Source: Deltaproteobacteria bacterium (GTDB taxonomy: Bacteria > Bdellovibrionota > Bdellovibrionia > Bdellovibrionales > JAMPXM01). From it: a stretch of DNA of 64,000 nt. The notes under the pieces are model-generated. The model did no database searches, was not told the DNA's origin, and saw only the letters and a list, made by a program, of their open reading frames with translations. The position numbers and the translations under genes are program-made. The stretch spans positions 62,001 to 126,000 of the forward strand of contig JAFLCB010000004.1 of assembly GCA_017302795.1 (NCBI GenBank), given 5' to 3'. This document shows positions 6,026-60,427 of the stretch, piece by piece (within the stretch, counting starts at the first letter, position 1; the number at the start of each line of letters is the position of its first letter).

Positions 6026-6081
6026 AAACTCACGCGATTTACTTTCCTGATGGCTCTCTCAAGTCGCCTTAAAAAGGCTTT

Positions 6082-7275: not shown

Positions 7276-7277
7276 GA

Positions 7278-8174: not shown

Positions 8175-8186
8175 CGTAACCAATCC

Positions 8187-8612: not shown

Positions 8613-8744
8613 TTCGCTCTCCTTCACAGATGATCTGGGCACTTCAAGCCCTTCCCATATTGTTTCGGCAACGAGTCGAAGAGAGTTAAAAGAAGATTTT
8701 GATAATATGAAGTTTTATGTCTCGATCTAAAACGATGTCTCGAT

Positions 8745-9698: not shown

Positions 9699-9802
9699 CT
9701 CGCTCCTATCTTCGTATCGCTAGGTTTCAGAATCAACGACAGATACAGACCGGACTAAAGTCGATTCAAGTCCCATTTCGAGACGACCGATAGAGGAGCT
9801 GG

Positions 9803-11872
9803 ATGAAAATGCTCCCGAACGGACAAAACATTTCAACTGGAAAACTGCTGACCTTCGCCGCCGGGCTGCTTTTGTGTGCCTACATTGGCCACACGACTTG
9901 GATGACCTGGGAGCTTCGAGACCAGCCAAATTTTTTTCCCACTCGCGATCTCAATTGGAAAATGATCTCTGGCGGCGATCGCAGGCAAGCGCACATCCGA
10001 ATAGAAGGTACGGCATTCTGGCTTCCCGCAAGAACCCAAATACTTTCCAGCAATGCGCATATTTTAACCGAAGACGCGAGCACGACATTAAGAAACATTC
10101 AAACCGATAGTACGATCGCATTGAGTGCCGCAGCGGTTGCACATCTAGAAAACAAAGTGACGACAACTTTCACACTTCTTTCCGGAGTCGCGAACCTTCG
10201 CGGTCCGATCGATGTGAAGCTATCTGACGGGCAACGTCGACTTGCGAGCGGTGAAACGCGAACCATCGCCGTAGTCACTTCAGCTACTTCGATTGAAACA
10301 TCCATCGTCGATGCATTGAGTCCGCCTGTTGGCACCAACATCGAACTTATCAAGACTCCCGTCATTGAATTCGCCTGGGCGACGCCAGGTTCAGAAAGCA
10401 CAGTCCTGGAGTTTGCCCGAGATCCAAGCTTTCAGTCGGTTCTTTTCACTAAGGTGGTTGGAACTGGTGTTTCAACCAAATTTGATTTCGGAGATCGAGG
10501 ACACGGAGCCTGGTTTGCGCGAGTGAAAGATCGAGATCGAACTCTTGCAGTTACTAGCTTCCATACTTCTGAAAAGCTAACTCCTGATCGCATGCGCCGT
10601 CTTGGCCGGCGCTGGTTGACATGGGAAGATCGTGGCCCCTCCAGTTTCTACCGCGTCGAACTTTCCCCGACGTCCAACTTCAGTAGTATTTCTCAAAGTG
10701 CATTAACTCGAACAAGGTTTCTCGACCTCTCCTTCGTGCGAGAAACTGGAGTAAAATACGTTCGCGTGATTGGAATCGATCAGAACGAAGTGGAATACAT
10801 CAGCGAAATTTTGCCGATCGAAATTCCGCCGCGCGACCAATTGCTTCAAGCTCGCACCGAGTTTGGCGATCCAAATTTAACTTTGCTCGCGCGGGGCTGG
10901 AGAATCCAGTTGAATGAATCAGAGGCAAGGAGAATCCGCGAGGGGTATGTGATCCTACGGGAAAACGAACTTCGCGGGATTCGAGTCTCCGCTGAACTTG
11001 ATGTGAAAATAAAATCTCAGCCATCAAAGTACCTTTTTGAAGTAGCAAAGGATTTGGGATTTTCCAATCCCGAGCGGGTTCGCCCCACTTCTCGTGGCGA
11101 ATTGCTGCCACCTGCACTTCCGCTGGGAACAATCTATACCCGCATTCGTGAAATAGAAGACGACGGCATCACGCTGGGTGCCTATGGCCCAGCTTCAAAA
11201 ATTTCAACCTTACTGCCTGCTCCCAGGAATTTAACCGCGCGCATTTCAGAGTCCGGAGCTTCCCTGAATTGGACCTTTCCCTTTGAAGCATCGGGATTTG
11301 AAGTCGAAGTCCGAACTGCCAGCGCAAACGAACCGGCGATTTATAGAACTCAAGGAAGGACAAAGGAAATTCCTGTTCTCGACATTGATCGTTTCGAATG
11401 GACAGTCACAGCGCTCGACGAAACCGGTCGCCCGGTTTCGGTTTCATCTGCATTGACGACGGCCGTAAGACCGACAGTTGTGAATAAAACTATAGCGAGG
11501 GACACGTCTGACCGGGAACGGCTGAAGGCCAGCGATGCCGCGGCTCGTGAGCTTGCCTCAGTCAATCCATCGCTTGTGCAACTTGAGGCGCCACTCGAGG
11601 ACGCAGTCGTCGTCGGCGGAGCAACCTCCACCAAATATGGTCGGTTAGAATGGAAAGACCTAGCACCCGGGAATAACACGAAATCTGATGCGTTCGTTGT
11701 TGAAATCGCAACAGACGGCGATTTCGTAAACATTGTGGAAAGAGCATCAACAAGTCGGTTGCATTACACATTGCAGGGCGACCTACCAGAAGGTTCTCTC
11801 TTCTGGAGAGTCAAAAAGCGCAAGCTAAACACTTGGAGCACATCCCGCAAATTCGAAATTGTTTACGAGTGA
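9803..11872 (+). CDS. FecR-like periplasmic protein with repeated beta-sandwich domains
   Basis: 689 aa. GAGGAG lies 4 bases before the ATG. An N-terminal membrane anchor (about residues 14-32) is followed by a FecR-like region (about 50-170; TTFTLLSGVANLRGPIDV and the GQRRLASGETRTI pattern). Then come at least two or three fibronectin-type or similar beta-sandwich repeats, as each has a W-ending strand such as VIEFAWA, SLNWTF and GSLFWRV. Such proteins occur in several copies in Bdellovibrio-like and myxobacterial genomes; their role is not settled. It is co-oriented with a TauE/SafE remnant that starts at its stop codon (GTGA overlap). Confidence 0.65.
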   Translation: MKMLPNGQNISTGKLLTFAAGLLLCAYIGHTTWMTWELRDQPNFFPTRDLNWKMISGGDRRQAHIRIEGTAFWLPARTQILSSNAHILTEDASTTLRNIQTDSTIALSAAAVAHLENKVTTTFTLLSGVANLRGPIDVKLSDGQRRLASGETRTIAVVTSATSIETSIVDALSPPVGTNIELIKTPVIEFAWATPGSESTVLEFARDPSFQSVLFTKVVGTGVSTKFDFGDRGHGAWFARVKDRDRTLAVTSFHTSEKLTPDRMRRLGRRWLTWEDRGPSSFYRVELSPTSNFSSISQSALTRTRFLDLSFVRETGVKYVRVIGIDQNEVEYISEILPIEIPPRDQLLQARTEFGDPNLTLLARGWRIQLNESEARRIREGYVILRENELRGIRVSAELDVKIKSQPSKYLFEVAKDLGFSNPERVRPTSRGELLPPALPLGTIYTRIREIEDDGITLGAYGPASKISTLLPAPRNLTARISESGASLNWTFPFEASGFEVEVRTASANEPAIYRTQGRTKEIPVLDIDRFEWTVTALDETGRPVSVSSALTTAVRPTVVNKTIARDTSDRERLKASDAAARELASVNPSLVQLEAPLEDAVVVGGATSTKYGRLEWKDLAPGNNTKSDAFVVEIATDGDFVNIVERASTSRLHYTLQGDLPEGSLFWRVKKRKLNTWSTSRKFEIVYE

Positions 11873-45580: not shown

Positions 45581-46392
45581 TGAGCATGAAACTCGTCCCA
45601 GTATCGAGCAGTCAAAATGATGTTTTCAAAGCTCTTTTAAAATCGACGGACGGTCGCGGCGACTTTGTCTTAGTGCATGGCTTGAAATTGATCGACGAAG
45701 TGTTGCGATCTAAATCACTTGCTCCTAAAACGATTGTCGCTCGCAATGGGTTTGCGCTCGAAAAGTCGGATCTTGCGCGCGATGTGTTTTCGAGACGGTT
45801 TGATCAACCCGTATCACGACTTCTTTTGGACGATGCGTTGTTTGATCAGCTGGACCCCATTGGCGTCCCCGATGCCCTTGCCGCTTTTGAACGACCACCG
45901 GTCGGAAAGTACGACTTTAAATCTCCGGTTGCCGGCCCGAGCCTTATGGCAGCAACGCAAAACCCAGCCAACCTGGGCGCCTTAATCAGATCAGCTGCGG
46001 CGTTTGGAATTAAAAACTTCATCTCTCTCAAAGAAGCAGCCCACCCGCTTCATCCTAAAACTGTTCGTGGATCGATGGGCTACGTTCTCGATCTTCAAAT
46101 TTTCCAAGGTCCATCAATACATGATCTCGGCGGATTTGAGGCTGGGGCGGCCCCAGGAGGACTATTTTCTCGCCTCGTGACATTGGATCTTGCAGGCGAT
46201 CCGCTGCAAAACTTCATATGGCCCAAAGATCCGATTGTTCTGGTCGGAGAAGAAGGCAGAGGGGTTCCGAAAAGCTACAAAGGTTCGCGAATTCTTATTC
46301 CGCATCTTCCATCCGTTGATTCATTGAACGCAGCCGTTAGCGGAGGAATTGCACTCTATGATTTTTATTTGAAAACCGAGTCTAAAGCTTGA
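45580..46392 (+). CDS. TrmH/SpoU-family RNA methyltransferase
   Basis: 270 aa. Starts at an ATG overlapping the previous stop by one base (TAATG). The C-terminal SPOUT domain is clear: AATQNPANLGALIRSAAAFG (motif 1), VLVGEEGRGVPKSYKG (motif 2) and LNAAVSGGIALYDFYL (motif 3), which form the SAM-binding trefoil knot. The N-terminal 100 residues fit the substrate-binding domain of the 2'-O-ribose methyltransferases. Its target, rRNA or tRNA, is unknown. The end overlaps the convergent mevalonate kinase by 11 bases. Confidence 0.88.
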   Translation: MSMKLVPVSSSQNDVFKALLKSTDGRGDFVLVHGLKLIDEVLRSKSLAPKTIVARNGFALEKSDLARDVFSRRFDQPVSRLLLDDALFDQLDPIGVPDALAAFERPPVGKYDFKSPVAGPSLMAATQNPANLGALIRSAAAFGIKNFISLKEAAHPLHPKTVRGSMGYVLDLQIFQGPSIHDLGGFEAGAAPGGLFSRLVTLDLAGDPLQNFIWPKDPIVLVGEEGRGVPKSYKGSRILIPHLPSVDSLNAAVSGGIALYDFYLKTESKA

Positions 46393-47326
46393 AGACAGGA
46401 ATCAGCTTCGATTCTACTTCGATGGCAGGGCGCTCCCGCCAAAGGCTCAACGCAAACCCGCCGCCGCCAGAACCCGTTGGTTTAACGGCCGCTGCACCGC
46501 CACTAGAAAGCCAAGATAGATGCCGTCCAAGCTCTCCATTGCTCAATCCCCAATCGCCAAAGCAAGTAGCAGAAAGCTTGATCGCCGCCACTAGTTTTTC
46601 GAATCGCTCGTGGGCTGCATCCGCCGACGTTACCTTCTGCATCAGACTTTCATGCGCAAAACTAACCGCTTGACGCATTTTCAGATCCAGTCTTTCACCA
46701 CGATCTGCATCTTTCGCGATGAGTTCCTTCACTTTGGCCACGCACTCCGAGGTGATTCCTCGAGTTCCAGAATAACTTATGTACCAGTTCGGCTGCCACT
46801 CAGGATCGAACGCTGTGAATCCGCCCTGCCGTGAAAACAGAAGTCCTCGGCTTTCAATTGCGACAGCGACGTCGACTCCACTGGACTCACCGTGAAAAAG
46901 GTTTTCAATCTCACGGCAAAACTCAAAAAGCCGGATTTCTGATATTGCCCCTTGGGAAACAAACCAACGACCGACAGCGACAGCGAGTGCTGCCGATGCA
47001 CCAAGCCCTGCACCAACTGGTAGTGTGCTATCGACATGAAAGTGACCACGCTTGAGGCTCAAGTCCCCCGGACGATTCAAAATCTCTAAAGCGCGGTCAA
47101 AGACGCCGGAAAAGAGCAGTTGGAACTCTTGCCCCCGATCGCCTCCAAAGCTTGAGCTAAAAGTCCCCGCCTCTGACCACGTGAGTGCTAAATACTTTCC
47201 ATAAACTGGAAAGGCGATCGCTTGGCAACCTCGCAAAACGGAGTGTTCGCCAGCTAGAATCCACTTACCATGTACTTTTACTGAAAAATCAGCCGATCGA
47301 AGATCACTCGCCAAAAAATCGCTCAC
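46382..47326 (-). CDS. mvk: Mevalonate kinase
   Basis: 314 aa GHMP kinase, last gene of the mevalonate operon. Motif 1 is KWILAGEHSVLRG (mevalonate-binding His in GEHSV), motif 2 LPVGAGLGASAALAVAVG holds the ATP loop, the catalytic Asp lies in HGESSGVDVAVA, and motif 3 KPTGSGGGGFALSL is near the C-terminus. It phosphorylates mevalonate. Its start is an ATGA overlap with the decarboxylase stop. Assignment to mevalonate rather than phosphomevalonate kinase follows the GEHSV motif and comparison with its paralogue at 48408. Confidence 0.88.
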   Translation of the reverse strand: MSDFLASDLRSADFSVKVHGKWILAGEHSVLRGCQAIAFPVYGKYLALTWSEAGTFSSSFGGDRGQEFQLLFSGVFDRALEILNRPGDLSLKRGHFHVDSTLPVGAGLGASAALAVAVGRWFVSQGAISEIRLFEFCREIENLFHGESSGVDVAVAIESRGLLFSRQGGFTAFDPEWQPNWYISYSGTRGITSECVAKVKELIAKDADRGERLDLKMRQAVSFAHESLMQKVTSADAAHERFEKLVAAIKLSATCFGDWGLSNGELGRHLSWLSSGGAAAVKPTGSGGGGFALSLWRERPAIEVESKLIPVFKL

Positions 47327-48411
47327 AGCGCTTCCATTTCCTTTGAATCAAGAATTCGAATCGATGAGTGAGTCACCAGAAGCAACTTCAAGGTCTCAAT
47401 CGCTTGGTCGCCAGCCTCGTCGCGCCAAAAAAGCGCGTGAACATTTGGACCGGCATCCATCGTCACGATCGGCATTCGGTTACCCGCTTTCGCCGAATGT
47501 TCAGAAACCTCACGCAGCATATTCAAAACGGCGACAGTCTCGGGCACAAAGTACCCAAAAGATGGATTCGAAGTCTCAAAAAGCGCATGCATATCCCAAG
47601 ATTCCGCCCAAACCGTGTTTGCCGCTCGATTCCAGGCAGACACTCCCTCGGTGACACTTCCTGATCGCTTTAGGCAATCCAATAAACTTCTCAAACGCTC
47701 TTCCGCGCGTTTAATTCTTCCATTAAACAAGGCCGAGGACGTCACACGAACATGAGCTTCACTGCTAGATACCGACTTCTTTTGTTCGTCGACGATAATT
47801 GCAATGTGGCGAATATTTTTTCGACCGGGCAGACCCTCGACTGGCGAAGCCCCTTCGCTATTCCAAATTGACCAGGGCGAAAAAAACGACCGACAAGACG
47901 ACCCAGAGCCCTCTCGAGACAAACCTGCTAGCCAAATTCGGTTCTCTGGTTTTTCAGTATCAAAATCAAAAAGTTTAGCGATCGCCAACGTCAACGCTGC
48001 AAAGCTAGACGCAGATGATGCAAGTCCACAGTCGGACGGAAAACCGTTTGCACTTTCAACGACCAGAGTTCCGTTGGGCGCGCTTCCAGCTTTCAATCTC
48101 ATGTTCGCGTGCTGATGTTCGCCAATTCTTGCCAGACACCGATCCGCATGGCGTAGGTATCTTTCTTTACCGGCCTCGGAGAGGATCGGTGAATGCCAGC
48201 CCTTTGCGCTGGAATCAGTCCATGGGCGCCAAAGATGTTTTACCGCGTGCCCATCTTCCCATTTGACTCTGACGCGCGTTTTCAAATGATCGAGAGTCCA
48301 AGACAGTGACGAGTTCGCAGATTGATTTGCCGTGGGGTCTTGAACTTTACCCATGTATTTGATCAACGCGATATTCGAAGGCGCGGTCGCCTCACTCCAG
48401 TCAAGATTCAT
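47323..48411 (-). CDS. mvaD: Diphosphomevalonate decarboxylase
   Basis: 362 aa from the ATG at 48411, which overlaps the phosphomevalonate kinase stop (ATGA); the frame also extends to 48450. GHMP superfamily: ATAPSNIALIKYMGK at the N-terminus, SLSWTLDHLKTRV, the ATP loop FPSDCGLASSASSFAAL, SREGSGSSCRSFFSPWSIW, and TMDAGPNVHALF with the catalytic Asp region. It makes isopentenyl diphosphate from mevalonate diphosphate with ATP. The full motif set fits the decarboxylase rather than a mevalonate 3-kinase. Confidence 0.9.
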   Translation of the reverse strand: MNLDWSEATAPSNIALIKYMGKVQDPTANQSANSSLSWTLDHLKTRVRVKWEDGHAVKHLWRPWTDSSAKGWHSPILSEAGKERYLRHADRCLARIGEHQHANMRLKAGSAPNGTLVVESANGFPSDCGLASSASSFAALTLAIAKLFDFDTEKPENRIWLAGLSREGSGSSCRSFFSPWSIWNSEGASPVEGLPGRKNIRHIAIIVDEQKKSVSSSEAHVRVTSSALFNGRIKRAEERLRSLLDCLKRSGSVTEGVSAWNRAANTVWAESWDMHALFETSNPSFGYFVPETVAVLNMLREVSEHSAKAGNRMPIVTMDAGPNVHALFWRDEAGDQAIETLKLLLVTHSSIRILDSKEMEAL

Positions 48412-49496
48412 GTGGGAGACCCTTTCCTCTCTAAAACTAAACCGTCGCAATGTAGATCCATTTCAGAACCTGCAAAGCTTAGTCCGTTTTCATCGGCAAA
48501 CTGCTTCAAAAACTGCGATGAACGCTCACCGGGATCGTGCAAAACCAAAATCACATCTGAACCCATCGCTCCGCAACCTTTTGCCGCTCGCACCATGCTG
48601 ACGTCTGACAGCTGGTCTAAAATTTTTTGCGAATGTGTCGCCAAACGACCGGAATCCGCGAGTAACCGACCAGTGCCTCTTACACTTGCAGAAAATCGAT
48701 CGGCATCCGAAGTTGCTAAAGATAGGATGGCCTCTTTCAACCACTCCCTCATATCTGTTTCAAACGCGGCATCAAACCCAGGGTCACGTGTCGATCCTAG
48801 TCCCCGCTCTCGCACTGACTCAGGTCCCGCCAGCCTTTGGTTTTCTACGGAGGAAGCGAGGTGCTCATGGGTAGCAAGCTTTCGGCCTGTTTTAAAGAGT
48901 GACATCGACAAGTCTGAAAACGGCCAGCTAAATCGCCGCATATGATCTTGAGCACCATCCCAAGCAGCAATTCCGCCGGTCACCTGCGAGACAAGATCTG
49001 CACCGGAGCCCGCTTTCACGTAAGTAAAGTACCGATCTAGAAGATCGCGGAAACGTGCAGATCCGACGCGATCTGAACTCCAAAGCGGCACAACCTCGTT
49101 AAGATGATTGGGAAGGATCTCGACAAACTCTGTTCGCTTGTTTGTTCGAACGCGCTCGTTGAGCGTTTCCAACGTCAGCCATTGCTCGAATATCCAAGCA
49201 CCGACGAATTCCGCGGTGGAGGCACCTAGGCCCCCTTTGCCAAAATGTGGGTCTTGAAAGGAAATTGAATACTCTCTGCTATCAGGTCTCTTCACGTACA
49301 GCTCGTTCAGAAGCTTGCCGGCCGGTGATTCAGGATGAAAACCATGATTCACCTGATGTTTGACTGGTGTCCAAGAAAATTCGAAACAAGGACGAGTCAT
49401 GGCGACCACCGACGGTCCGCCTGCCAGAGCTAAATATTCTCCCACGAGAAAAGTCTTACCAGGAATACTAAGATGAAAACTTTTTTCCTGGATCAT
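48408..49496 (-). CDS. Phosphomevalonate kinase
   Basis: 362 aa GHMP kinase. Motif 1 PGKTFLVGEYLALAGGPSVV has GEYLAL as in phosphomevalonate kinases rather than the GEHSV of mevalonate kinases. GKGGLGASTAEF forms the ATP loop and AKGCGAMGSDVILVL is motif 3. The middle keeps KAGSGADLVSQVTGG with the catalytic Asp. It follows HMG-CoA reductase after 18 bases and overlaps mvaD by 4. The identity is inferred from motif 1 and the operon's otherwise complete set. Confidence 0.82.
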   Translation of the reverse strand: MIQEKSFHLSIPGKTFLVGEYLALAGGPSVVAMTRPCFEFSWTPVKHQVNHGFHPESPAGKLLNELYVKRPDSREYSISFQDPHFGKGGLGASTAEFVGAWIFEQWLTLETLNERVRTNKRTEFVEILPNHLNEVVPLWSSDRVGSARFRDLLDRYFTYVKAGSGADLVSQVTGGIAAWDGAQDHMRRFSWPFSDLSMSLFKTGRKLATHEHLASSVENQRLAGPESVRERGLGSTRDPGFDAAFETDMREWLKEAILSLATSDADRFSASVRGTGRLLADSGRLATHSQKILDQLSDVSMVRAAKGCGAMGSDVILVLHDPGERSSQFLKQFADENGLSFAGSEMDLHCDGLVLERKGSPT

Positions 49497-49514
49497 GAAA
49501 TCACAATCGCCTTT

Positions 49515-50828
49515 TCACGTGAGGGCGCGACCGCTATTAGAGGCGGACGGAAGATTTCCTCGAATTTCGCGCAAGACTTCAACTGCATTTTGCAACGAAA
49601 TCCGCTTCGTCATCATCAATATTTCTTCCAGTCGTTTTTGAACCAACGGAACTTCACGTTCCGAAGCACCTGCTCCCAGAGTCAGATTTCTGATATGAAG
49701 TTTCATGTGGCCTTCAATGATACCGACGGTTGTCAGCGCCTTCAACGCACCGAGGTTTTGGACTAACCCTACCGCAGCGCAAATCCGGGACAGTTCGGCC
49801 GCAGAACTAATTCCAAGCATGCTTAAAGCCAACTGAGCTGTGGGATGCAGCTTTGTCACTCCGCCGACGGTCCCAACCACCACAGGAGCCTCAAATATTC
49901 CGACCAGGTGTCTGTTTGTATACTTCCACGTGGTAATGGAGCGGTATTGGCCGGAACGCGCCGCATACGCATGAACCCCTGCTTCAACGGCGCGCCAGTC
50001 GTTGCCAGTGGCGATTAAAATCGGATCTATCCCGTTCATCACACCTTTATTGTTCGTCGCCGCCCGATAAGGATCGAGATTCGCAAACAACGAAGCCTCT
50101 TCAATTCGTTTTGCTAGATCTTCTTCGATATCATGAATCTCGACTTTCGCGCGCGTGAGCTTTGTGTCAACGAGGTTCGAGAGAATGCACATCGTTACTG
50201 TTTCGCCAGTCAGGCTTTCGATCGGACCCTTTAAATACTCACAAACCTGATTGATAATGTTCGCACCCATTGCATCGCACGGATCTGCCAACACATGAAT
50301 CACGGCCATGGTGGTGCCATCGCCGCGATCTATTTTTCTGATTTGAATATCTTCAACGCCGCCCCCGCGAGCGACGAGACCCTGGGCGACATCGCGATTG
50401 GCGAGATTCAACAGATCAGATTTTGCTTCCCGAATCTTCTTCTCGAAATTGGCAATGTCTTTGACCTTCGCGATCTGGATCTGGCCGATGATCAGGTCGC
50501 CGACGGATTCTGTCGTGATTTCACCGACGTCGCGAACCCACTTGGCTGTCTTGCTCGCTGCCGCGACAATCGACGTTTCTTCTACCGCTAGTGGAATTAC
50601 AACATCTCGACCATCGATTCGAAAGTTAGTGGCAACTCCTAGCGGGATTTGAAAATATCCAATGACATTTTCAATAAATTTTTCCGCAAGGTGAGTGTCT
50701 TTTAACCCTCCTGAACGAAGGTGTTGCGCTTCTTGTTCAGACAGCGCGCCGATTGCTACAAGCCGATCGTACCGCTCACCTTGGCTAAGTTTTGAAAAAC
50801 CATTAAGTGCTGAGGTTTTAATGCTCAT
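49515..50828 (-). CDS. mvaA: Hydroxymethylglutaryl-CoA reductase, class II type
   Basis: 437 aa, soluble, no membrane domain. The early ENVIGYFQIPLGVATNFRID is the substrate-binding signature, VEETSIVAAASKTAKWV carries the catalytic Glu, DAMGANIINQVCEYL is the family motif, and VGTVGGVTKLHPTAQLAL the C-terminal one. Class II enzymes have no amphibian-like N-terminal anchor and use NADH or NADPH. In this operon it should act in the mevalonate-forming direction. It starts at an ATGA overlap with idi2. Confidence 0.93.
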   Translation of the reverse strand: MSIKTSALNGFSKLSQGERYDRLVAIGALSEQEAQHLRSGGLKDTHLAEKFIENVIGYFQIPLGVATNFRIDGRDVVIPLAVEETSIVAAASKTAKWVRDVGEITTESVGDLIIGQIQIAKVKDIANFEKKIREAKSDLLNLANRDVAQGLVARGGGVEDIQIRKIDRGDGTTMAVIHVLADPCDAMGANIINQVCEYLKGPIESLTGETVTMCILSNLVDTKLTRAKVEIHDIEEDLAKRIEEASLFANLDPYRAATNNKGVMNGIDPILIATGNDWRAVEAGVHAYAARSGQYRSITTWKYTNRHLVGIFEAPVVVGTVGGVTKLHPTAQLALSMLGISSAAELSRICAAVGLVQNLGALKALTTVGIIEGHMKLHIRNLTLGAGASEREVPLVQKRLEEILMMTKRISLQNAVEVLREIRGNLPSASNSGRALT

Positions 50829-52096
50829 GATAGCCCATCCTTTATAGCGCTCATAGCGCCTCCGGTTGAAGCGCCTCCGGTTGAAGCTCTTTCGAACACA
50901 CGATTCAAAATCGCGTGGGCTTCGAACGCTTTGAGGTCTTTAAGTCCGCAACAAAATAAAACAGTCTTCAACTCATAATCAAAGTGATCCATTACTTGAT
51001 GCAAAGATGTTTCACTTTCAAGAGCCCCTGCCAATATAGGCTGAGCTAAGCCCACTGCTTTCGCGCCTAAGCGAAGTGCCTTTGCTCCATCAATTCCAGA
51101 ACGAACTCCGCCGGAAGCCCAAACTTCATGCCCATCCGCTCCTGTTTCACAAACTTTCGCGACCTGGATCAATGATTCCGCAGTCAGTAGGCCCCAATTT
51201 TCGAAAGCTTTGGCAGCTTGACGAAGTGTTTTGAGACGGTTGATTTCCGAATCCGTCGCGGCCAACTCTAACTTCCGCGCAGCTCTGAGGCCCTCGATGC
51301 GCCCCCAGTGTGTTCCGCCTCGACCGGCAACATCAACAACGCGAACTCCCACATTGAACAATCTCGAAGCGGTCAGGGCAGAAATTCCACAGCCCGTTTC
51401 TTTGACAATCACAGGCACCGCGAATTCCGCTTCAGCCATTTTCACAAGCTCCGCAATCGCACTAAGTCCGCCTCGAAACTGCGGCGTTCCTTCTGGCTGA
51501 AGCGCTTCTTGAAGAGCGTTAAGATGAATGATCATCGCTTTCGCTTCAAGCGCTTCGATCAATGTTAAAACTTGAGACGGCCCTGATTCGATCAGCTGAC
51601 TGATACCTATATTTCCAAATAAAATCGCACCGGGCGCAGTCTTTCGAACGCGGCGCCATTCATCTTGAGCTGTTTTATCACCCAGTTCCCGACGTTGGGA
51701 TCCAACTCCCATTGCCCAGCCTTTTTGGGCTGCCGCAGACGCCAACATTTCGTTGAGCCTCAAAGATTCCTTGTGGCCACCTGTCATGGAGCTAATAAAA
51801 AACGGAGATTTTAATTCTGTCTCAAACCGTGTTCCCTGAAAAATCCGCGAACCAATTGAGACTTCATTGAAGTTTAAATCTGGGAGCGCTTCATGAACGA
51901 ATTCAAATGCATCAAAACCCGAGCCTCCCGATTGAACCGACGGGTCCATGGAAGCACGGATGTGATCCGACTTTCTAGATTCAAATATCTCTGGGACTTC
52001 TGACAATGTTCCTCCCGCCGCTTGTTGAGCGAGGGTGACGGATTTGCCGTCGGAGTTGGCATTTAGGGTCATGTCGATTTGGTCCATAGACTCCAT
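50825..52096 (-). CDS. fni: Isopentenyl-diphosphate isomerase, type 2
   Basis: 423 aa, FMN-dependent TIM-barrel enzyme that interconverts IPP and DMAPP; first gene of the mevalonate operon. Visible: SRKSDHIRASMD, PFFISSMTGGHKE, WAMGVGSQRREL, HLNALQEALQPEGTPQFRGG and the FMN-binding VWASGGVRSGIDGAKALRLG. The N-terminus has about 35 extra residues; ATGs at 52096, 52087 and 52072 are all in frame, none with an ideal ribosome-binding site. A tandem 15-bp repeat encodes ASTGG twice near the C-terminus. Confidence 0.92.
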   Translation of the reverse strand: MESMDQIDMTLNANSDGKSVTLAQQAAGGTLSEVPEIFESRKSDHIRASMDPSVQSGGSGFDAFEFVHEALPDLNFNEVSIGSRIFQGTRFETELKSPFFISSMTGGHKESLRLNEMLASAAAQKGWAMGVGSQRRELGDKTAQDEWRRVRKTAPGAILFGNIGISQLIESGPSQVLTLIEALEAKAMIIHLNALQEALQPEGTPQFRGGLSAIAELVKMAEAEFAVPVIVKETGCGISALTASRLFNVGVRVVDVAGRGGTHWGRIEGLRAARKLELAATDSEINRLKTLRQAAKAFENWGLLTAESLIQVAKVCETGADGHEVWASGGVRSGIDGAKALRLGAKAVGLAQPILAGALESETSLHQVMDHFDYELKTVLFCCGLKDLKAFEAHAILNRVFERASTGGASTGGAMSAIKDGLS

Positions 52097-52125
52097 TTAA
52101 AATTAACACACGGTTTGCGAGTTCA

Positions 52126-52161
52126 AAAAAAAACGAGCGGGCTTTTAAAGTCCCGCTCGTC
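52126..52161 (-). terminator. Terminator after rplT, before the mevalonate operon
   Basis: On the minus strand ACGAGCGGG / CCCGCTCGT (9 perfect pairs, 10-base loop) runs into TTTTTTTTT. Only about 30 bases separate the T-run from the first idi2 codon. Confidence 0.9.
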
Positions 52162-52911: not shown

Positions 52912-53487
52912 TTATGGCCTGCTGGGGTCGAATTCACCCATATTGATAGCCGGAATGGCCTGATTGCCCAATTTTTCAAAGCTTTGCGTAAGTTTGAAAA
53001 GGGAAAGTTTGAATCGGATAAGCTCCTCTGCCTCTCCCAAGGCGTCTTGCGCTGCATTTGAAAGCTCTGTGCCCATCTCAAAATTATGGCCGCAGATCGA
53101 AAGAAGATAGGCCCGTGGAACGTTTTGATAGCACTTTTCAGCTAGACATAAAATCGCAAGAGGATCCAACGCATGGCTGGCGACACTATTGCGGGCAAAA
53201 CCGTTAACAGCCAAATCTCCGTTCTGCGGTGTTTTCAGTTCGACCCAATTTACAGGATTGGATTGTGATGCATGGGCATCTACCAAGATGACTACGTCAA
53301 AGTGACTCCATTGCTCAGCATTCTCGATTTGTAATTGGTAAACCCATTCGAGTTCGACTTGAACGGTTGATTGATTTCCCGCAAGTTTGGATGCTTCTAG
53401 CCGCTCGATTAGCATTGGCCCGAGGGCGTCGTCGCTTCGTAGCGGATTGCCAATTCCTTGGATCAAAACCTTAGCGGGTGAATTCAT
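52912..53487 (-). CDS. hoxW: Hydrogenase maturation protease (HoxW/HyaD family)
   Basis: 191 aa. The nickel-dependent endopeptidase fold starts GIGNPLRSDDALG with the first metal-binding acidic residue, continues with VILVDAHAS (second) and a late CGHNFEMG with the His ligand. It cuts the C-terminal peptide of HoxH once nickel is inserted, and overlaps the hoxH stop by 17 bases, so it is the last gene of the hox operon. A tail of about 25 residues beyond the core is unremarkable. Confidence 0.88.
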   Translation of the reverse strand: MNSPAKVLIQGIGNPLRSDDALGPMLIERLEASKLAGNQSTVQVELEWVYQLQIENAEQWSHFDVVILVDAHASQSNPVNWVELKTPQNGDLAVNGFARNSVASHALDPLAILCLAEKCYQNVPRAYLLSICGHNFEMGTELSNAAQDALGEAEELIRFKLSLFKLTQSFEKLGNQAIPAINMGEFDPSRP

Positions 53488-54976
53488 TGATCACTTCACC
53501 GGCTTGCTCGACTCTAATTTGCAGTGGCATTTTACCCAAAGCGTGAGTCGCACAACTGAGACAAGGGTCGTAGGCCCTAATCGCCGATTCTATCGCATTC
53601 ATAAGTCTGTCTTGGGAGCGAGCTGACTTTAAATCGGTTTCCGGCAGCAGTCGCCGCGCCACAGAGCCAACCGCCTCATTCATCGCAAGATTATTGTGCG
53701 TTGTCGAAACGATTAAATTGCACCGCTGAATTTCGCCCGATTCGGCGACATCGTAGTGATGAATCAATGTTCCACGAGGCGCTTCAATAAAACCGATGCC
53801 AGAACCTGTAAATTTACCGGATGCCTTTAGCTGAGAACCGGAAATCTCTGGATTGCTGAGCAGCTCTTGAATTCTCTCGGCACAAAAAAGCATTTCAATC
53901 AGCCGAGCCCAATGGAAGTTCAGTGTCGATTGCGAGTACCGTCCATTAACGGAACGAAACTCATCAAGTTCCTTTTGCGCCCGAGGTGTCGGAATCGAAT
54001 CGCAAACATTGACTCGCGCCAGCGGCCCGACCCGCATCGAGCCATTGGGAAAACCAAGTGACTTGAGAAACGGAAACTTAAGGTAGGTCCAATCAACGAC
54101 TCGCTCGCCATAGAGGCTGACATAATCATGATAGTCGACGTCGTCCAAAATTCGTTTGCCGGTGGGAGACACGCATCGCAATCGCCCGTGATAGAGATCC
54201 ATCTCCCCGTCTTCGCCAACAAGCGACAGCGAAAGCATGGGCTGATTCAAAAAAGAGTCCACCCAAGTTTTATTTGAAAAATGAAACTCCTTGTACACAC
54301 TCAAAACATCCACACACCAATCGATCACTTGGCTGACGCTAGGAACATCGACACCATCGTTGAAGTAAGAGATCTCAGCTTGGCCGAGGTTCTTGTGAAT
54401 GCCCCCCGGTACGGCCGAAATACCATGGATTTTCTTACCGGCTGTTGCGCGAATGATTTCTTGGCCAAACTTTCGAATTAGAATTCCCCGCTTTGCTAAC
54501 TCGGGATTGGCATTGACGATTCCCACGATGCTGCGGTCGGCGACTTCCACATCGCGTCCAAGCAGTAGGTCAGGAGCGGCCAGATAAAAGAAGTGAAGCG
54601 CATGTGACTGAAGGATCTGACCGTAATGCATCAGGCGACGCATCACTCTCGCCGTTTCGGGAATTGTCTGGTCGTTTAATCCTACGACTTCATCAATGGC
54701 CTTTGCCGCGCAAAGGTGATGGCTAACAGGGCAAATCCCACAAAGTCGTTGTACAATCACCGGGGCTTCCCAGTATGGACGACCCTGCACAAACCGTTCA
54801 AAGCCGCGAAACTCCACGATGTGCAGGCGGGCTTCGTCAAGCTCGCCTTTTTTGTTCAACATCAGCGTTACGCGTCCGTGTCCCTCAACCCGAGAAACCG
54901 GGTCGATCACAATCTCCCGACGATTCACACCACTATTCACGCTGCTATTCACACCACTATTCACACCGTTATTCAT
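53471..54976 (-). CDS. hoxH: [NiFe] hydrogenase large subunit, soluble NAD-linked type
   Basis: 501 aa. It carries the NiFe(CN)2CO site. L1 motif RLCGICPVSHH and L2 motif DPCLSCATH supply the four Cys ligands. After the L2 His come 24 residues (ALGKMPLQI...) that the protease should remove. YLAAPDLL, GISAVPGGIHKN and EAPRGTLIHHYD fit group 3 hydrogenases. Start: ATG at 54976, overlapping the hoxY stop, with GAGGAG 8 bases upstream. The first 16 codons are a 12-bp tandem repeat. Confidence 0.95.
   Translation of the reverse strand: MNNGVNSGVNSSVNSGVNRREIVIDPVSRVEGHGRVTLMLNKKGELDEARLHIVEFRGFERFVQGRPYWEAPVIVQRLCGICPVSHHLCAAKAIDEVVGLNDQTIPETARVMRRLMHYGQILQSHALHFFYLAAPDLLLGRDVEVADRSIVGIVNANPELAKRGILIRKFGQEIIRATAGKKIHGISAVPGGIHKNLGQAEISYFNDGVDVPSVSQVIDWCVDVLSVYKEFHFSNKTWVDSFLNQPMLSLSLVGEDGEMDLYHGRLRCVSPTGKRILDDVDYHDYVSLYGERVVDWTYLKFPFLKSLGFPNGSMRVGPLARVNVCDSIPTPRAQKELDEFRSVNGRYSQSTLNFHWARLIEMLFCAERIQELLSNPEISGSQLKASGKFTGSGIGFIEAPRGTLIHHYDVAESGEIQRCNLIVSTTHNNLAMNEAVGSVARRLLPETDLKSARSQDRLMNAIESAIRAYDPCLSCATHALGKMPLQIRVEQAGEVINEFTR
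54926..54973 (-). repeat. 12-bp tandem repeat at the hoxH start
   Basis: Four units of the type AATAGTGGTGTG follow the ATG directly and encode NNGV NSGV NSSV NSGV. Each unit is in frame and contains a GTG codon. Between units 1 to 4 only a few bases differ. Confidence 0.9.
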
Positions 54977-55532
54977 AAGTAATAGCTCCTCGGTTCAGCG
55001 AAAATGGGTGACCATAGATCTGACTTTTCAAGAGATCTCGGAAAAGTGGGCCCGGCGGAGGACATCCGGGAAGAAAGACGTCAATCTTCACTATTTCATG
55101 GCATGGATACACGCGGTCCAAAATTTTAGGTAAGTGCCGATTGTGCGGAATTACATTTGTGGGATTCGAAACAGTTGGTCCCGTGATGTAGGATTCATTC
55201 AGGCACTCGCTGAGCGGAACATCATTTCGAAGCGCCGGCAAGCCACCCATAATCGCACACTCGCCGACAGCGACCAAAATCTCGCAGTTTTTTCTAAATT
55301 CACGAAGCACATGCAGGTTTTCATCGTTGCAAACGCCTCCTTCAATGAGGCCAACATCAACCCGTTGATCGAAACTTTTATAGTCAGTGAATGGCGAGCG
55401 CAATATCTCGATGTGTGGCAACACCTCGACAAGGTCGAGATCCATGTCGAGAAACGACATATGACAACCGAAACATCCTGCCAACGAAACAGTCGCAACT
55501 TTGATTTTTCTCGGTGCCGGTTTCGCGTTCAC
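54969..55532 (-). CDS. hoxY: [NiFe] hydrogenase small subunit
   Basis: 187 aa, the short form typical of group 3 hydrogenases. It holds the proximal 4Fe-4S cluster next to the NiFe site: AGCFGCHMSFLD (two Cys), GECAIMGGLP and FLPGCPPPGPL give the other ligands. No twin-arginine signal is present, so the enzyme is cytoplasmic. It overlaps hoxU by 4 bases and hoxH by 8. Confidence 0.94.
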   Translation of the reverse strand: MNAKPAPRKIKVATVSLAGCFGCHMSFLDMDLDLVEVLPHIEILRSPFTDYKSFDQRVDVGLIEGGVCNDENLHVLREFRKNCEILVAVGECAIMGGLPALRNDVPLSECLNESYITGPTVSNPTNVIPHNRHLPKILDRVYPCHEIVKIDVFLPGCPPPGPLFRDLLKSQIYGHPFSLNRGAITYE

Positions 55533-56230
55533 TTAGAACTCCGACTATCGCTCTTGCGGGTACCAATGGGTCGATCAAAACCTTGCCCCTTAAATAAAAT
55601 CGCCCCAGTCGGACAAATCGCGACAGCTTCCTTTTTCTTATGCTTTGACATCTCAGCTTCAAGCTTCAAGTCCATTTCAACAACCGTCTTACGCCCCTTA
55701 CCCATGAAGCGAAAAACCTTTCTGCCTTCGTCATCAACGAAGAGGTCCGTGCAACGCTTGCAATGAATACAGCGATTGCGTTCGATCATTAGATCTTTAC
55801 CGCTATAATCTAAATCATAGTGCGAAAATTTGTAGGGAAACCGTGAATGCGTAATGCCCTGATCATAGGCGACACTTTGCAATTCGCAATCACCAGACTT
55901 CTCGCACCCGGGACAATAATGATTGCCCTCTGAAAAAAGCAGCTCGGTTACACCTTGGCGCAAATTCCGAAGGTCGCTTGCACCACATTCTATAACGTCA
56001 CCCTTCCCGATCTGAACCGTGCACCCCGCAACCTCGCGTCCATTCTTGCGCACAGTGCAGACCCGGCAGGTTCCCAAAGCGGGCTCAAGGCCGACACTCC
56101 AGCAAAGCGTCGGAATTTCAACTCCATTCATCCTGATGGCATCGATCAAATTTGTCCCCACTGGGGCAGATGCCACTTTTCCATCGATTAAAAACTCGAC
56201 TCTTTCGTGGCTCGAAATTTCTGGTTTCAT
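55529..56230 (-). CDS. hoxU: Hydrogenase diaphorase subunit HoxU
   Basis: 233 aa, related to the N-terminal part of NuoG. 2Fe-2S ferredoxin region: IPTLCWSVGLEPALGTCRVC with a later AGCTV Cys. His/Cys-ligated cluster: NHYCPGCEKSGDCEL. A further 4Fe-4S region: RCIHCKRCTDLF and AVAICPTGAI. It passes electrons between HoxHY and HoxF. Starts at an ATGA overlap with hoxF. Confidence 0.93.
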   Translation of the reverse strand: MKPEISSHERVEFLIDGKVASAPVGTNLIDAIRMNGVEIPTLCWSVGLEPALGTCRVCTVRKNGREVAGCTVQIGKGDVIECGASDLRNLRQGVTELLFSEGNHYCPGCEKSGDCELQSVAYDQGITHSRFPYKFSHYDLDYSGKDLMIERNRCIHCKRCTDLFVDDEGRKVFRFMGKGRKTVVEMDLKLEAEMSKHKKKEAVAICPTGAILFKGQGFDRPIGTRKSDSRSSK

Positions 56231-58014
56231 CTTGGTGCTCGCTTGACGGAAGGTCGATTTACTTTTTTAACAGCCAGGTTGTAATCTCGCGTCGCTGCCG
56301 CTTCGTCGAACGGGAAAATTTGAGAACTCGCGACACTTTCAAAAACTTTTTCAAACACCTTAGGAAACGCGATCATTGATGTTGTGAGAACATTTGGTGA
56401 CGTAGCACCCAGTCCACAGCGCGAAGTTTTTGAAATGATTGAAGACCAATCTCGAATTCGTTCACGGTCTCCTGGATGTGGTTTCCCAGCGCGAAGTCTT
56501 TTGATGGCGTCAAGCAAGACAACATTGCCCGCCCGACAAGGGGTGCAGTTGCCACACGACTCATTGACAAAGAATTCCATGAAATTTTCTAAAACGTGAA
56601 ACAGGTCTCGTCTTTTCGAAAAGACCATCAGTGATCCACCCGTCGCAAGATCCTCAAAGCTAATTTGTCGGCGGGTGTCGTTGGCACTCACGCACAAACC
56701 GCTAGGACCACCAACCTGGACGATCTCGGGTGATTTTGCCTGGCAGAGACGCAAGACTTCGCCAAGCGATACGCCCCAGGCAACCTCATAGATACCAGGC
56801 TTTGCAACATCACCAGAAATCGAAAGAAGTCGAGTGCCCTTGGACTTTTCAGTGCCCAGAACGCTGAACGCGCCGGCACCCTTAGCAAGAATCTGTGACG
56901 CAAGGACAAAAGTTTCAACGTTGTTAACGACGGTTGGACACCCACGATAGCCACGCTCCACAGGAAATGGTGGGCGGATGCGCGGTTCGCCCCGCCGACC
57001 CTCTAGCGACTCCAACAACGCTGTTTCCTCACCACAGACATAGGCACCGGCACCCAATTGAATTCGGATAGAAAACTTGCCCCATGACGGATGCCGGGCG
57101 ACTCGCTTCAAAACTTTCTGAAGATGCTTTTGCAGATAGGCATATTCCGCGCGCAAGTAGAGAATCCCTTCCTTCGCACCAATAGCCCGAGCCGCAATGG
57201 ACATCCCTTCAAACATCAAATCTGCCTGACTGGTCAGCAGTTCGCGATCTTTGAACGTTCCCGGCTCACCTTCGTCAGCGTTGCAAACAACATATCGATT
57301 CGGGCTTTGGAAGTTTGCACAAAGTTCCCACTTTGCACCCGTCGAATATCCCGCACCACCGCGCCCCCGAAGTCCACTCAGTTTTATTTCGCTGATGATC
57401 TCGAATGGGGACTGTTTTGCGGCCTTTGAAAGACCAGCCCCAAAAACTTCCTGCGCGCCGAAAAACGGGCCGAGCTTTCGCACACCGCTAACGACTGGCG
57501 AGGCAATTTTCCCTGCTTTTTTCCCAGAGCGGAGCTTGCGAATAATTCCGGGAACTGCACTGGCACGCAATTTTGGAAATGGAATTAGATCTATAAGCGC
57601 GGCAGGTCCTTGATCACTCATTCCGATACAAGAAGTTTCGAACAGGCCAAATTTCCCGTCTTTCGTCACTTCGCCGATGCGAATTCCAAGTTCGTTCTCG
57701 AACGCTTTCCGAACTGAAGGCATGCCAGCGATCTCACTTATGATCGACGTGTCGAGAAAAATCTGATGCTTTCCTGCGGGCTGCTCGTGAAAGAAATGAT
57801 AAAACGATAAGACCTCGCGAATATCAGCAGGAGAGATCCTAAGGTAGCGCGCAATCAACGCCCCTTCGCTTTCCGACACATAACCGGGCTTGGCTTGTAC
57901 GGCCCAGAGGATGTCGAGAAGACGACCGCGATCGCGTTCGTAACGCAAAACGATTGACTTGATCTGTGCCCGGCGCGTTGCTGTGATCACTGTTGTTTGA
58001 CTTCGGTTTTTCAC
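56227..58014 (-). CDS. hoxF: Hydrogenase diaphorase subunit HoxF (NAD/FMN binding)
   Basis: 595 aa from the GTG at 58014 (GAGAG upstream); the frame is open to 58095 but enters the divergent hypF. The N-terminal 165 residues are NuoE-like; the rest is NuoF-like with SGLRGRGGAGYSTGAKW and CNADEGEPGTFKDRELL (FMN), GAYVCGEETALLESLEG (NAD) and ESCGNCTPCRAGN plus a later CGLG (4Fe-4S). The NuoE-like part keeps one of four cluster cysteines (SCIGMSDQGPAAL), so it should hold no 2Fe-2S centre. First gene of hoxFUYHW. Confidence 0.95.
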   Translation of the reverse strand: MKNRSQTTVITATRRAQIKSIVLRYERDRGRLLDILWAVQAKPGYVSESEGALIARYLRISPADIREVLSFYHFFHEQPAGKHQIFLDTSIISEIAGMPSVRKAFENELGIRIGEVTKDGKFGLFETSCIGMSDQGPAALIDLIPFPKLRASAVPGIIRKLRSGKKAGKIASPVVSGVRKLGPFFGAQEVFGAGLSKAAKQSPFEIISEIKLSGLRGRGGAGYSTGAKWELCANFQSPNRYVVCNADEGEPGTFKDRELLTSQADLMFEGMSIAARAIGAKEGILYLRAEYAYLQKHLQKVLKRVARHPSWGKFSIRIQLGAGAYVCGEETALLESLEGRRGEPRIRPPFPVERGYRGCPTVVNNVETFVLASQILAKGAGAFSVLGTEKSKGTRLLSISGDVAKPGIYEVAWGVSLGEVLRLCQAKSPEIVQVGGPSGLCVSANDTRRQISFEDLATGGSLMVFSKRRDLFHVLENFMEFFVNESCGNCTPCRAGNVVLLDAIKRLRAGKPHPGDRERIRDWSSIISKTSRCGLGATSPNVLTTSMIAFPKVFEKVFESVASSQIFPFDEAAATRDYNLAVKKVNRPSVKRAPR

Positions 58015-58021
58015 GCTCTCT

Positions 58022-60427
58022 ATGATGCAGACAATGAGCACCAATACGCAACACCGATTTGATAATGAATCGGACTTTTCCGAATCTGCGTTCAACGTGG
58101 ACCTGTACGGAAGGGTGCAAGGTGTCGGAATGCGGCCTTGGCTATTTCGCCTTGCGCAATCGCACGAGTTGCTTGGCCAGATTTTTAATCATTTTGCCGG
58201 CACAAGTGCAGTACTTCAGGGGCGCGCGGCAGCGCTTCAGTCTTTCCAAGAAGAACTCACATCTGCTCTGTCCGGGCCGAGCGGCCACTTCCCTGCGCAA
58301 GTTGAAAAACTTGTTTTCAGCGAAATTGAATCTCGGAAATTTGATCGCCTCGAAATTTTGACTGCGCCACCTGTGACAACGAACCATTTTTTTTCTCAGC
58401 TCACGCTTTCTGCGCCACCTGACCTTGCAACCTGCTTTCAGTGTTGGCTTGATTTTTCTAATCCGAAAAGCCGGTTCTTCAATTACCCTTTTATTTCTTG
58501 CACCTCATGTGGTCCGAGATGGACCCTGCTTCGTAAACTTCCCTTTGAACGAGAACACACAAGCTACGCCGACTTTGAAATGTGCACGGATTGTGAAAAA
58601 GAATATTCCGATCCAAGCAGTCGACGATTCTTCTCACAAACGATGAGTTGTGAAACCTGCGGACCGAAAATCCAGCTACACTTGGACTCACAACAGACGT
58701 TGCGCGAGAATCCCCCAAAGAACACCCTATCTAAAGACGCTTTCAGAGAGTGCTCGACTGCTCTAAAAGCCGGAAAGATCGGCGTCATTAAGGGAATGGG
58801 CGGCTTTCAGCTGATAGGAAACGCACTTGACGAGCATGCCATAATGCGAATTCGGGCACTCAAACAAAGACCTGATCAAGCTCTCGCTGTGATGTTCAGG
58901 GACCTTGAAACGTTTCAATTCTATGGCGGCGGCGCCCAAATGTGGAATGAGCTTCGGTCACCTGAAGCCGCCATCCATTCAACTTCAGGTCTTGAATTTC
59001 CCACGCGTCACCTCATTGCTCCCGACTTAAATGAAGCCGGTGCGATGGCAGCAACGACGCCATTCCATTTCTTGCTGCAAAGCGAAGTACCGCTGCTAGT
59101 TGTGACTTCAGCGAATCAGAATGGATCGCCAATTCCTCGGACAATTCAGGAGATCGAGTTCCGCATTGGCAGCGAAATAGATTTTGTTTTAGATCACAAT
59201 CGCGAAATCACATTTCCTATCGACGACTCGGTCGTCAAAGACGGCCAGGTGCTACGCGCTGCTCGGGGAATTCTTCCGCGAGTGCACCCGAGAAAAGACA
59301 ATAAAGCGGAACCCAAAAAAGATGTTTTGGCTCTTGGAGCGGATCTCAAGAACTCGTCTGCTTTCACGCAGAACGGTATAACGACTGAGCTTCCCTACGC
59401 CGGAACGATATCGACACTCGAAGGACTGAGAACTTTGAAATCTCGATTGGAAAGACAACTGAAGCTGTTCGATTTTGTTCCCAAAGCCGTGCTGTGTGAT
59501 TTCCACCCCGAAACTCTCACCTGCCAATTGAATCTGTTTCCCGATTTAGTGCCCACTCGCGTCCCCCATCACCTGGCCCACGCGATGGCATTGCAAATGC
59601 CGGCGGACCTCGTTTTGTCATTTGATGGAACTGGATTTAATGGCGATATGGACGCAAACGGAGGCGAGGGATTTATCCAGCTTGAACGAAGACTGCAGTT
59701 TGAACCCACACCGCTTGTCGGCGGCACATCTGCAGTGCGAGAGCCGTGGAAATTTGCCACGAGCTCTCTCATTCAAGGCGGAATGGGTAGAACTGAAATC
59801 TTGAAGCTCTTCCCGAACGTCGATCCTGCTGCCTTTCAAACCGTTGTTCAGCTTTCTAAGTCTCACAACCAGGTTAAGACCACGTCAGTGGGACGCTGGT
59901 TTGATGCAGCCAGTGCCATTGTTTGCTTTGGCACTCGTAACCAAACCTATGAAGCTCAAGCCCCCATCCGACTTGAAAGTCTTGCCGCAAAATGCAGGAG
60001 TCCAATCGCTCCGCTCCTCTTTTCAACAAACGAATTTATCTCTCTTGGCAATCATCAATCATCCGAGGGGGCCACCGAGTTTATTCAAATTGCTGGGTCG
60101 AGGCTCCTCACCCGGCTCGCCGAGCTAAAGATTTCAAAACTGTATCAGGAAAGTGAGCTCGCGTTTTACGCACATGATATGCTTGCGCAAGTCGTGGCCA
60201 AAGCGTCCGCAAGGACACTTCAACAGTTCGGAGCATCTTCTGATTCTCGATTGGCTTCTTACGTTGGTGTCACCGGCGGCGTGTTTCAAAACCAAGTCTT
60301 TTTGAATTGTCTTGAGACACACATGAAGGAGCAGGGTCTAAACCTTCGGCCGACACAAGGTTTCCCTGTCAATGACCAAGCCATCGCGCTTGGACAAACA
60401 AGATGGTGGCATCAATGCACGAACTAA
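58022..60427 (+). CDS. hypF: Carbamoyltransferase HypF
   Basis: 801 aa. It makes the carbamoyl group that HypE turns into the cyanide ligands. Domains in order: acylphosphatase (GRVQGVGMRPWLFRLA, about 30-110), two zinc-finger-like Cys regions (CFQCWLDF, CTSCGPRW; CTDCEKEY, CETCGPKI), a YrdC-like domain (KGMGGFQLIGNA, SANQNGSPIPRT), and a Kae1-like C-terminal domain (HHLAHAMALQM, SFDGTGFNGD, VTGGVFQNQVFLN). ATGs at 58022, 58025 and 58034 are in frame. Its start lies 7 bases from that of the divergent hoxF. Confidence 0.95.
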   Translation: MMQTMSTNTQHRFDNESDFSESAFNVDLYGRVQGVGMRPWLFRLAQSHELLGQIFNHFAGTSAVLQGRAAALQSFQEELTSALSGPSGHFPAQVEKLVFSEIESRKFDRLEILTAPPVTTNHFFSQLTLSAPPDLATCFQCWLDFSNPKSRFFNYPFISCTSCGPRWTLLRKLPFEREHTSYADFEMCTDCEKEYSDPSSRRFFSQTMSCETCGPKIQLHLDSQQTLRENPPKNTLSKDAFRECSTALKAGKIGVIKGMGGFQLIGNALDEHAIMRIRALKQRPDQALAVMFRDLETFQFYGGGAQMWNELRSPEAAIHSTSGLEFPTRHLIAPDLNEAGAMAATTPFHFLLQSEVPLLVVTSANQNGSPIPRTIQEIEFRIGSEIDFVLDHNREITFPIDDSVVKDGQVLRAARGILPRVHPRKDNKAEPKKDVLALGADLKNSSAFTQNGITTELPYAGTISTLEGLRTLKSRLERQLKLFDFVPKAVLCDFHPETLTCQLNLFPDLVPTRVPHHLAHAMALQMPADLVLSFDGTGFNGDMDANGGEGFIQLERRLQFEPTPLVGGTSAVREPWKFATSSLIQGGMGRTEILKLFPNVDPAAFQTVVQLSKSHNQVKTTSVGRWFDAASAIVCFGTRNQTYEAQAPIRLESLAAKCRSPIAPLLFSTNEFISLGNHQSSEGATEFIQIAGSRLLTRLAELKISKLYQESELAFYAHDMLAQVVAKASARTLQQFGASSDSRLASYVGVTGGVFQNQVFLNCLETHMKEQGLNLRPTQGFPVNDQAIALGQTRWWHQCTN

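Follow-up and report, generated by a model that had tools for sequence, protein, structure and literature searches.

The classical bacterial mevalonate pathway is of the type known from Gram-positive cocci. The window examined here, a stretch of 64,000 nucleotides from contig C4 of a 4.23-Mb Bdellovibrionales genome (G000, 98.6% complete), carries five mevalonate-pathway genes on its minus strand. With the classical pathway it shares a class II 3-hydroxy-3-methylglutaryl-CoA (HMG-CoA) reductase (HMGR), a mevalonate kinase (MvaK1), a diphosphomevalonate decarboxylase (MvaD), a type 2 isopentenyl-diphosphate isomerase (Idi2) and a GHMP kinase in the place of phosphomevalonate kinase (PMK). It differs in that no HMG-CoA synthase (HMGS) was found, the PMK candidate lies outside known models and the genes are joined to the ribosomal protein genes rpmI-rplT.

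In Halobacterium and Leishmania, leucine is described as a source of HMG-CoA for the mevalonate pathway (PMC8791446). Leucine-derived HMG-CoA feeds HMGR in these organisms, as we propose here from gene content; there it is an alternative shunt, whereas in the present case it would, judged by gene content, be the sole HMG-CoA source in nearly the whole phylum. In the myxobacterial branch, which is likewise predatory, leucine degradation is reported to meet isoprenoid synthesis at HMG-CoA (PMC7321100, PMC9548883). One myxobacterium is reported to have incorporated dimethylacrylate into a sesquiterpene, while acetate gave no clear label (PMC7321100). In Myxococcus, HMG-CoA of the mevalonate pathway can also become isovaleryl-CoA (PMC9548883, PMC7321100), whereas in Bdellovibrionales HMGS was not found. 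Mevalonate genes are reported to be enriched in predators (PMC4646340). The open-licence literature yielded no precedent for a leucine-fed pathway, or for the absence of HMGS, in Bdellovibrio, and pathway terms are absent from the main text of transposon and transcriptome papers on B. bacteriovorus (PMC6561027, PMC3627812).

The mevalonate operon and the search for HMG-CoA synthase

Along the minus strand the order is rpmI, rplT, a hairpin followed by nine T, idi2, mvaA, a GHMP kinase gene, mvaD and mvaK1. Both ribosomal protein genes, rpmI (L35; 52565..52759) and rplT (L20; 52198..52551), score over the cut-offs of their models, TIGR00001 and TIGR01032, respectively. The idi2 gene (50825..52006) reaches 317.5 bits against TIGR02151 (cut-off 281.3), and its product matches the solved IDI-2 2zru. 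mvaA (49515..50828) encodes the class II HMGR, with 348.9 bits against TIGR00532 (cut-off 259.95) and 1qax as the closest solved chain. For mvaD (47323..48411) the best model, TIGR01240, stays below its cut-off (145.9 against 171.35 bits), as does TIGR00549, the best model for mvaK1 (46382..47326, with a GTG start; 122.6 against 163.05 bits). Best models, solved homologues (3lto at 1.1e-48 for mvaD and mevalonate kinase chains for mvaK1) and the Pfam MVD domains (PF22700 and PF18376, MVD-like_N among them, over cut-off) together identify the pair as diphosphomevalonate decarboxylase and mevalonate kinase. The third gene (48408..49496), a candidate PMK, belongs to a family that has neither a Pfam nor an NCBIfam model. 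A first-pass annotation of the window had described five genes running in one direction, which is borne out by NCBIfam and Pfam models and, for the third gene, by predicted fold. Its names for idi2 and HMGR stand over cut-off, whereas phosphomevalonate kinase has no model match behind it and is kept as a candidate assignment. The 18 nt that it gave between mvaA and the kinase gene, and two of its three ATGA junctions (idi2/mvaA and kinase/mvaD), are as described, but mvaD and mvaK1 overlap by GTGA. At its 3' end the operon is convergent with a gene for a SpoU-type methylase.

We compared 80 loci, comprising 49 from Bdellovibrionales and 31 that are Legionella, Legionellaceae or gammaproteobacterial going by their titles. 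The order L20-idi2-HMGR-PMK-MVD-MVK is found on one strand in 41 of the 49 Bdellovibrionales loci; seven of the eight exceptions are cut by contig ends, and the eighth (L038) lacks MVD and MVK within the 6 kb examined. The mevalonate operon beside rpmI-rplT, which the first-pass annotation had noted, is thus conserved across the order, and with 41/49 loci keeping it the arrangement is not due to chance. In the other group HMGR is followed by the same kinase at every locus (31/31), and none (0/31) is next to rplT. The HMGR protein was found in 129/140 genomes of the order and in 215/241 of the phylum; the phylum sample consists of genomes of at least 90% completeness and includes 102 good genomes among the 140 of the order.

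The search for HMGS across the genome, which had been suggested with the first-pass annotation, was run with PF01154 and found none in G000. Nor did any of the 140 order genomes (0/140) give a match over cut-off, so that the synthase of the classical pathway is not seen in the order. In the phylum sample HMGS exceeded the cut-off in three of 241 genomes (G180, G181 and G268), all with HMGR, and 212 of the 215 HMGR-positive genomes are without it. As a control, PF01154 passed its cut-off in six of 14 genomes, among them archaea. The G180 protein is archaeal-type, above the TIGR00748 cut-off; for those of G268 and G181 the best model is the HMGS model TIGR01835, below its cut-off. Weak PF01154 matches occur in 38/140 order genomes at E values up to 0.1, the best at 20.3 bits. 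Five of them (L111, L112, L113, L115 and L120) were classified and rejected as HMGS, being FabH over its cut-off. Four others (L114, L116, L117 and L118) have a FabH-like start by eye only, and L119 (a 508-aa frame) and all remaining rows lie outside the classification. For the methylerythritol phosphate (MEP) pathway the search covered Dxr, and not dxs, ispG or ispH; it found none in G000, and the single marginal match among the 140 order genomes (G020) is a chemoreceptor. On these sequence comparisons, a headless mevalonate pathway, one without a recognisable HMGS, is a stronger finding than the read-through expression that is considered below.

Several observations on the relatives stand beside these results. 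Recent transfer from Legionella was considered and rejected on the HMGR tree (74 rows), in which the window falls among Bdellovibrionales and the Legionella rows lie apart. Two contigs, L057 and L043, are labelled Streptomyces griseus and Proteobacteria, yet they have the operon of Bdellovibrionales and group with that order in the same tree; the labels of these metagenome-assembled genomes look wrong. A long HMGR frame (751-782 aa) occurs in other Bdellovibrionota and in one order member, G058 (L178-L182). A fused thiolase-HMGR resembling mvaE was considered for the HMGR frames of 751-801 aa in other phylum members and rejected, as the one scanned, L181, is class I-like and matches HMGR models only. 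Both L181 and L182 have, after the long HMGR, a small membrane protein, CDP-archaeol synthase-like by eye, and then by an open reading frame (ORF) of about 800 aa resembling phosphoenolpyruvate synthase.

Leucine degradation as a candidate source of HMG-CoA

We consider it probable, with some reserve, that leucine is the main HMG-CoA source for the mevalonate operon, the pathway starting from this amino acid and not from acetyl-CoA. 3-Methylcrotonyl-CoA would be carboxylated by 3-methylcrotonyl-CoA carboxylase (MCC), which has separate beta, biotin carboxylase and biotin carboxyl carrier protein (BCCP) genes, and a neighbouring crotonase would hydrate the MCC product to HMG-CoA. The HMG-CoA pool would be split between HMGR, leading to isoprenoids, and HMG-CoA lyase, yielding acetoacetate and acetyl-CoA. 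From HMG-CoA the operon would produce isopentenyl diphosphate (IPP) and dimethylallyl diphosphate: HMGR would make mevalonate, MvaK1 and the candidate kinase would phosphorylate it twice, MvaD would decarboxylate the product and Idi2 would isomerise IPP. In a predator the leucine would probably come from prey protein. A metabolic model of B. bacteriovorus requires external leucine, and mevalonate goes unmentioned in the main text of that paper (PMC7529429). What we infer are the activities of the enzymes, the flux, the conversion of leucine to 3-methylcrotonyl-CoA and the standing of this route as the sole HMG-CoA source.

The proposal builds on gene presence, order and conservation, together with the lack of any HMGS or Dxr model match. 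G000 has two carboxyltransferases, one of which (L124) is, by eye, accompanied by genes of propionyl-CoA type and an ORF resembling a mutase. The other heads a liu-like cluster on the minus strand of contig C1 (L123), in which the MCC-beta gene (9691-11340) is followed by genes for a crotonase (8868-9797), a biotin carboxylase (7336-8886), BCCP (6965-7351; PF00364) and HMG-CoA lyase (6024-6968; 390.6 bits, cut-off 246). The nearest solved MCC-beta is 3u9r at 773 bits; one chain named "propionyl-CoA carboxylase" and one AccD1 chain score 762-764, geranyl-CoA carboxylase 503 and other propionyl-CoA carboxylases at most 286 bits. Genes for MCC, hydratase and BCCP are all present in G000, the hydratase substrate being assigned from position. 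For the corresponding crotonase of B. bacteriovorus (L170, genome G011) the closest solved chain is 3i47, and no specific methylglutaconyl-CoA hydratase model fixes the substrate. The same cluster is found in L170, L171, L172, L173 and L174, with the lyase one ORF away in L172; those of L172 and L173 are from 1.5-Mb genomes. With orthologues called at E values of about 1e-110 or better, MCC-beta is present in 132/140 order genomes and in 100 of the 102 good ones, and six of the eight genomes without it (G034, G056, G079, G086, G087, G094, G095 and G121) are under 90% complete. HMG-CoA lyase is over cut-off in 125/140. Among order genomes of at most 1.6 Mb, MCC-beta is kept in six of seven, four of these six having no second carboxyltransferase.

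Two further observations concern this cluster. G074 and G135 were considered as genomes in which HMG-CoA would have no other fate and were rejected, as MCC-beta lies near a contig end downstream and the absence of the lyase is not demonstrable. Several genomes have an ORF of about 200-236 aa ahead of MCC-beta (L123 11337-11999; L170 6063-6773), with DUF4442 (hot-dog) in L170 and no match in G000.

Linkage to MCC genes was seen in two genomes, G236 and G180, which are two cases among few regions examined. In G236 (1.7 Mb), HMGR-PMK and MCC-beta-hydratase point away from each other, their start codons 76 nt apart; the identities are 63% for MCC-beta and 51% for HMGR. The rest of the 78-kb G236 contig, searched with tblastn, holds no further gene of either set except for a weak partial carboxyltransferase match. 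In G180, MCC-beta-hydratase is directly preceded by genes for the archaeal-type HMGS, a thiolase and an OB protein, which places two routes to HMG-CoA next to each other. Across the phylum sample, HMGR and the MCC-beta orthologue are associated (209/6/10/16 for both, HMGR only, MCC-beta only and neither; n = 241, of which 209 + 16 agree; p 8e-14). As separate observations on the two linked loci, alpha and beta genes of a 2-oxoacid:acceptor oxidoreductase, which could oxidise keto acids such as ketoisocaproate, follow MCC-beta-hydratase in G236 (L185 5286-8130), and the archaeal-type HMGS, thiolase and OB-fold protein of G180 (L177 2550-5228) stand in a bacterial genome, perhaps through transfer.

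Several points weigh against leucine as the main source. The phylum association hangs on an orthologue cut that was set after the scores had been seen; 13 intermediate rows (2.1e-93 to 1.8e-106) were counted as absent, and counting them as MCC gives p 9e-4. The genomes are not independent, and by family the counts become 18/1/2/3 (p 0.018). Within the order, where both genes are near-universal, there is no association (122/7/10/1, p 0.49). Six HMGR-positive genomes are without an MCC-beta orthologue (G095, G121, G156, G241, G276 and G277), two of which form one family with a mevalonate operon. The conservation of HMG-CoA lyase almost equals that of MCC, and the liu operon may serve energy alone. 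Lastly, a growth study gives the main carbon sources of Bdellovibrio as glutamate, serine, aspartate, isoleucine and threonine, without naming leucine (PMC11271337).

Expression of the operon and rival sources of HMG-CoA

One rival reading concerns regulation and does not conflict with leucine as the HMG-CoA source. On this reading no promoter serves the operon itself, and its transcription depends on read-through past the rplT terminator, which would tie isoprenoid supply to ribosomal protein expression; we regard it as rather doubtful. The terminator reported after rplT is present by eye and by folding, as an intrinsic-terminator-like hairpin with a 9-bp stem and nine T between rplT and idi2 (52125..52160, minus strand; -19.6 kcal/mol); a consensus terminator scan did not list it. 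The gap of about 30 bases from T-run to idi2, said to leave little room for a promoter, is true only of the first ATG at 52096 (28 nt), from which the longest ORF runs. The likely start is TTG 52006, giving 393 aa. This codon lies behind GGAGGA and 7 residues before the conserved FESRK/FEARK motif, and in the close relatives L076, L031 and L041 idi2 begins 6, 9 and 10 residues before that motif, with no counterpart of the 27-30 residues upstream of TTG 52006. From this start the gap is 118 nt (52007..52124, minus strand), in which a promoter would fit, and the argument from lack of room fails if this start is the true one. No promoter with 9/12 consensus matches was found in the gap, a result that decides nothing on promoter presence.

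Comparison of the loci gave counts on both sides. The adjacency of rplT and idi2 in 47/49 loci, the remaining two being truncated, favours read-through, as do the 29 of 47 junctions without a terminator-like hairpin, which mostly have a short gap as cotranscription predicts. The other 18 of 47, L031, L041 and L076 included, have both a terminator and more distance to idi2, which a separate promoter would require. These calls required a hairpin of -10 kcal/mol or lower before at least 6 T in 8, a cut set by us, with L072 and L075 as weaker cases. Loci with a terminator have a median of 126.5 nt between the rplT stop codon and the idi2 match, those without one 55 nt (Mann-Whitney p 2.7e-6). In part of the order cotranscription with rplT may be ancestral; in the window's genus a promoter of the operon's own is at least as likely. 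Dependence on read-through, as the first-pass annotation envisaged it, is thus not established. About 150 nt upstream of rpmI-rplT lies a [NiFe] hydrogenase operon (window 52912-58095) with a VhuA-like large subunit and a maturation protease. No such protease turned up beside rplT in the 80 relatives, and infC is not directly upstream of rpmI-rplT. In an Rfam scan of the window, a tRNA was the only match over the gathering score.

As for HMG-CoA itself, it could be formed from acetoacetyl-CoA by a non-homologous or too diverged HMGS, or by HMG-CoA lyase in reverse, leucine breakdown being catabolic only. A 2013 study, as cited in PMC4451040, raised the possibility that predators draw on prey acetoacetyl-CoA pools. 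The near-universal lyase and the six HMGR genomes with neither HMGS nor an MCC-beta orthologue also fit such an origin, but PF01154 detects bacterial and archaeal HMGS in the controls and in three phylum genomes, and the weak matches classified in the order are FabH. HMG-CoA lyase is not known to serve net synthesis physiologically. We consider this origin unlikely. That HMGR is degradative, converting mevalonate to HMG-CoA, is suggested by the word "degradative" in the name of TIGR00532 and by 1qax as the closest solved chain, but is very improbable for an enzyme encoded in one operon with both kinases, the decarboxylase and the isomerase, in a genome where Dxr was not found, and of a class that is listed among bacterial mevalonate-pathway enzymes (PMC13001223).

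The candidate phosphomevalonate kinase and implications

Neither Pfam nor NCBIfam has a match for the third gene of the operon. Forty of the roughly 66 available sequences were aligned (the window's kinase and 39 homologues, of which five come from Legionella, Tatlockia or a gammaproteobacterial bin), and the three GHMP motifs show no variation in 40/40 (K14; G88-G89-G91-S93; S164-G165-D167; K306-C308-G309-A310-G312-D314). None of the 40 matches a Pfam or PMK model, and 12 match the TIGR00549 mevalonate kinase model weakly. The family profile reaches 3k17 (6e-10), mevalonate kinases, 1k47 and 3gon. An AlphaFold2 model (pLDDT 89.4) predicts a GHMP-kinase fold, with 3k17 nearest (Z 29.1), galactokinases at Z 27 and 3gon at Z 26.2; these scores do not separate PMK from other GHMP kinases, and the fold does not fix the substrate. 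The window kinase thus shares fold and profile matches with Listeria Lin0012 (3k17) and the S. pneumoniae phosphomevalonate kinase (1k47, 3gon), but at 15-16% identity and with no match to a curated PMK model. We propose the PMK role because the gene lies between those for HMGR and MvaD, beside a separate mvaK1.

A 2026 survey describes all analysed Legionella as without PmvK and most as without HmgS, and asks as an open question how this is compensated (PMC13001223). The family of the window's kinase could supply the PmvK function. The fullest form of our proposal is that nearly all Bdellovibrionota have an obligate leucine-fed mevalonate pathway, in which HMGS has been lost or was never there, leucine from prey feeds the first step, MCC is an essential biosynthetic enzyme and the unannotated kinase acts as PMK here and in Legionella, which would explain why PmvK was not found there in that survey. 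We put this forward tentatively, as a proposition slightly easier to doubt than to accept.

The operon is ordinary-looking, with its start corrected, and the interest lies in what the genome lacks. The kinase family offers a candidate for the PmvK gap of Legionella, still an open question in 2026 (PMC13001223). If leucine is indeed the source of HMG-CoA, the printed idea of prey acetoacetyl-CoA pools (PMC4451040, citing the 2013 study) would be superseded, and both the annotation of the phylum and its metabolic models would have to be corrected. It would also explain how mevalonate-using predators start the pathway, and would link an essential route of lipid synthesis to an amino acid of the prey.

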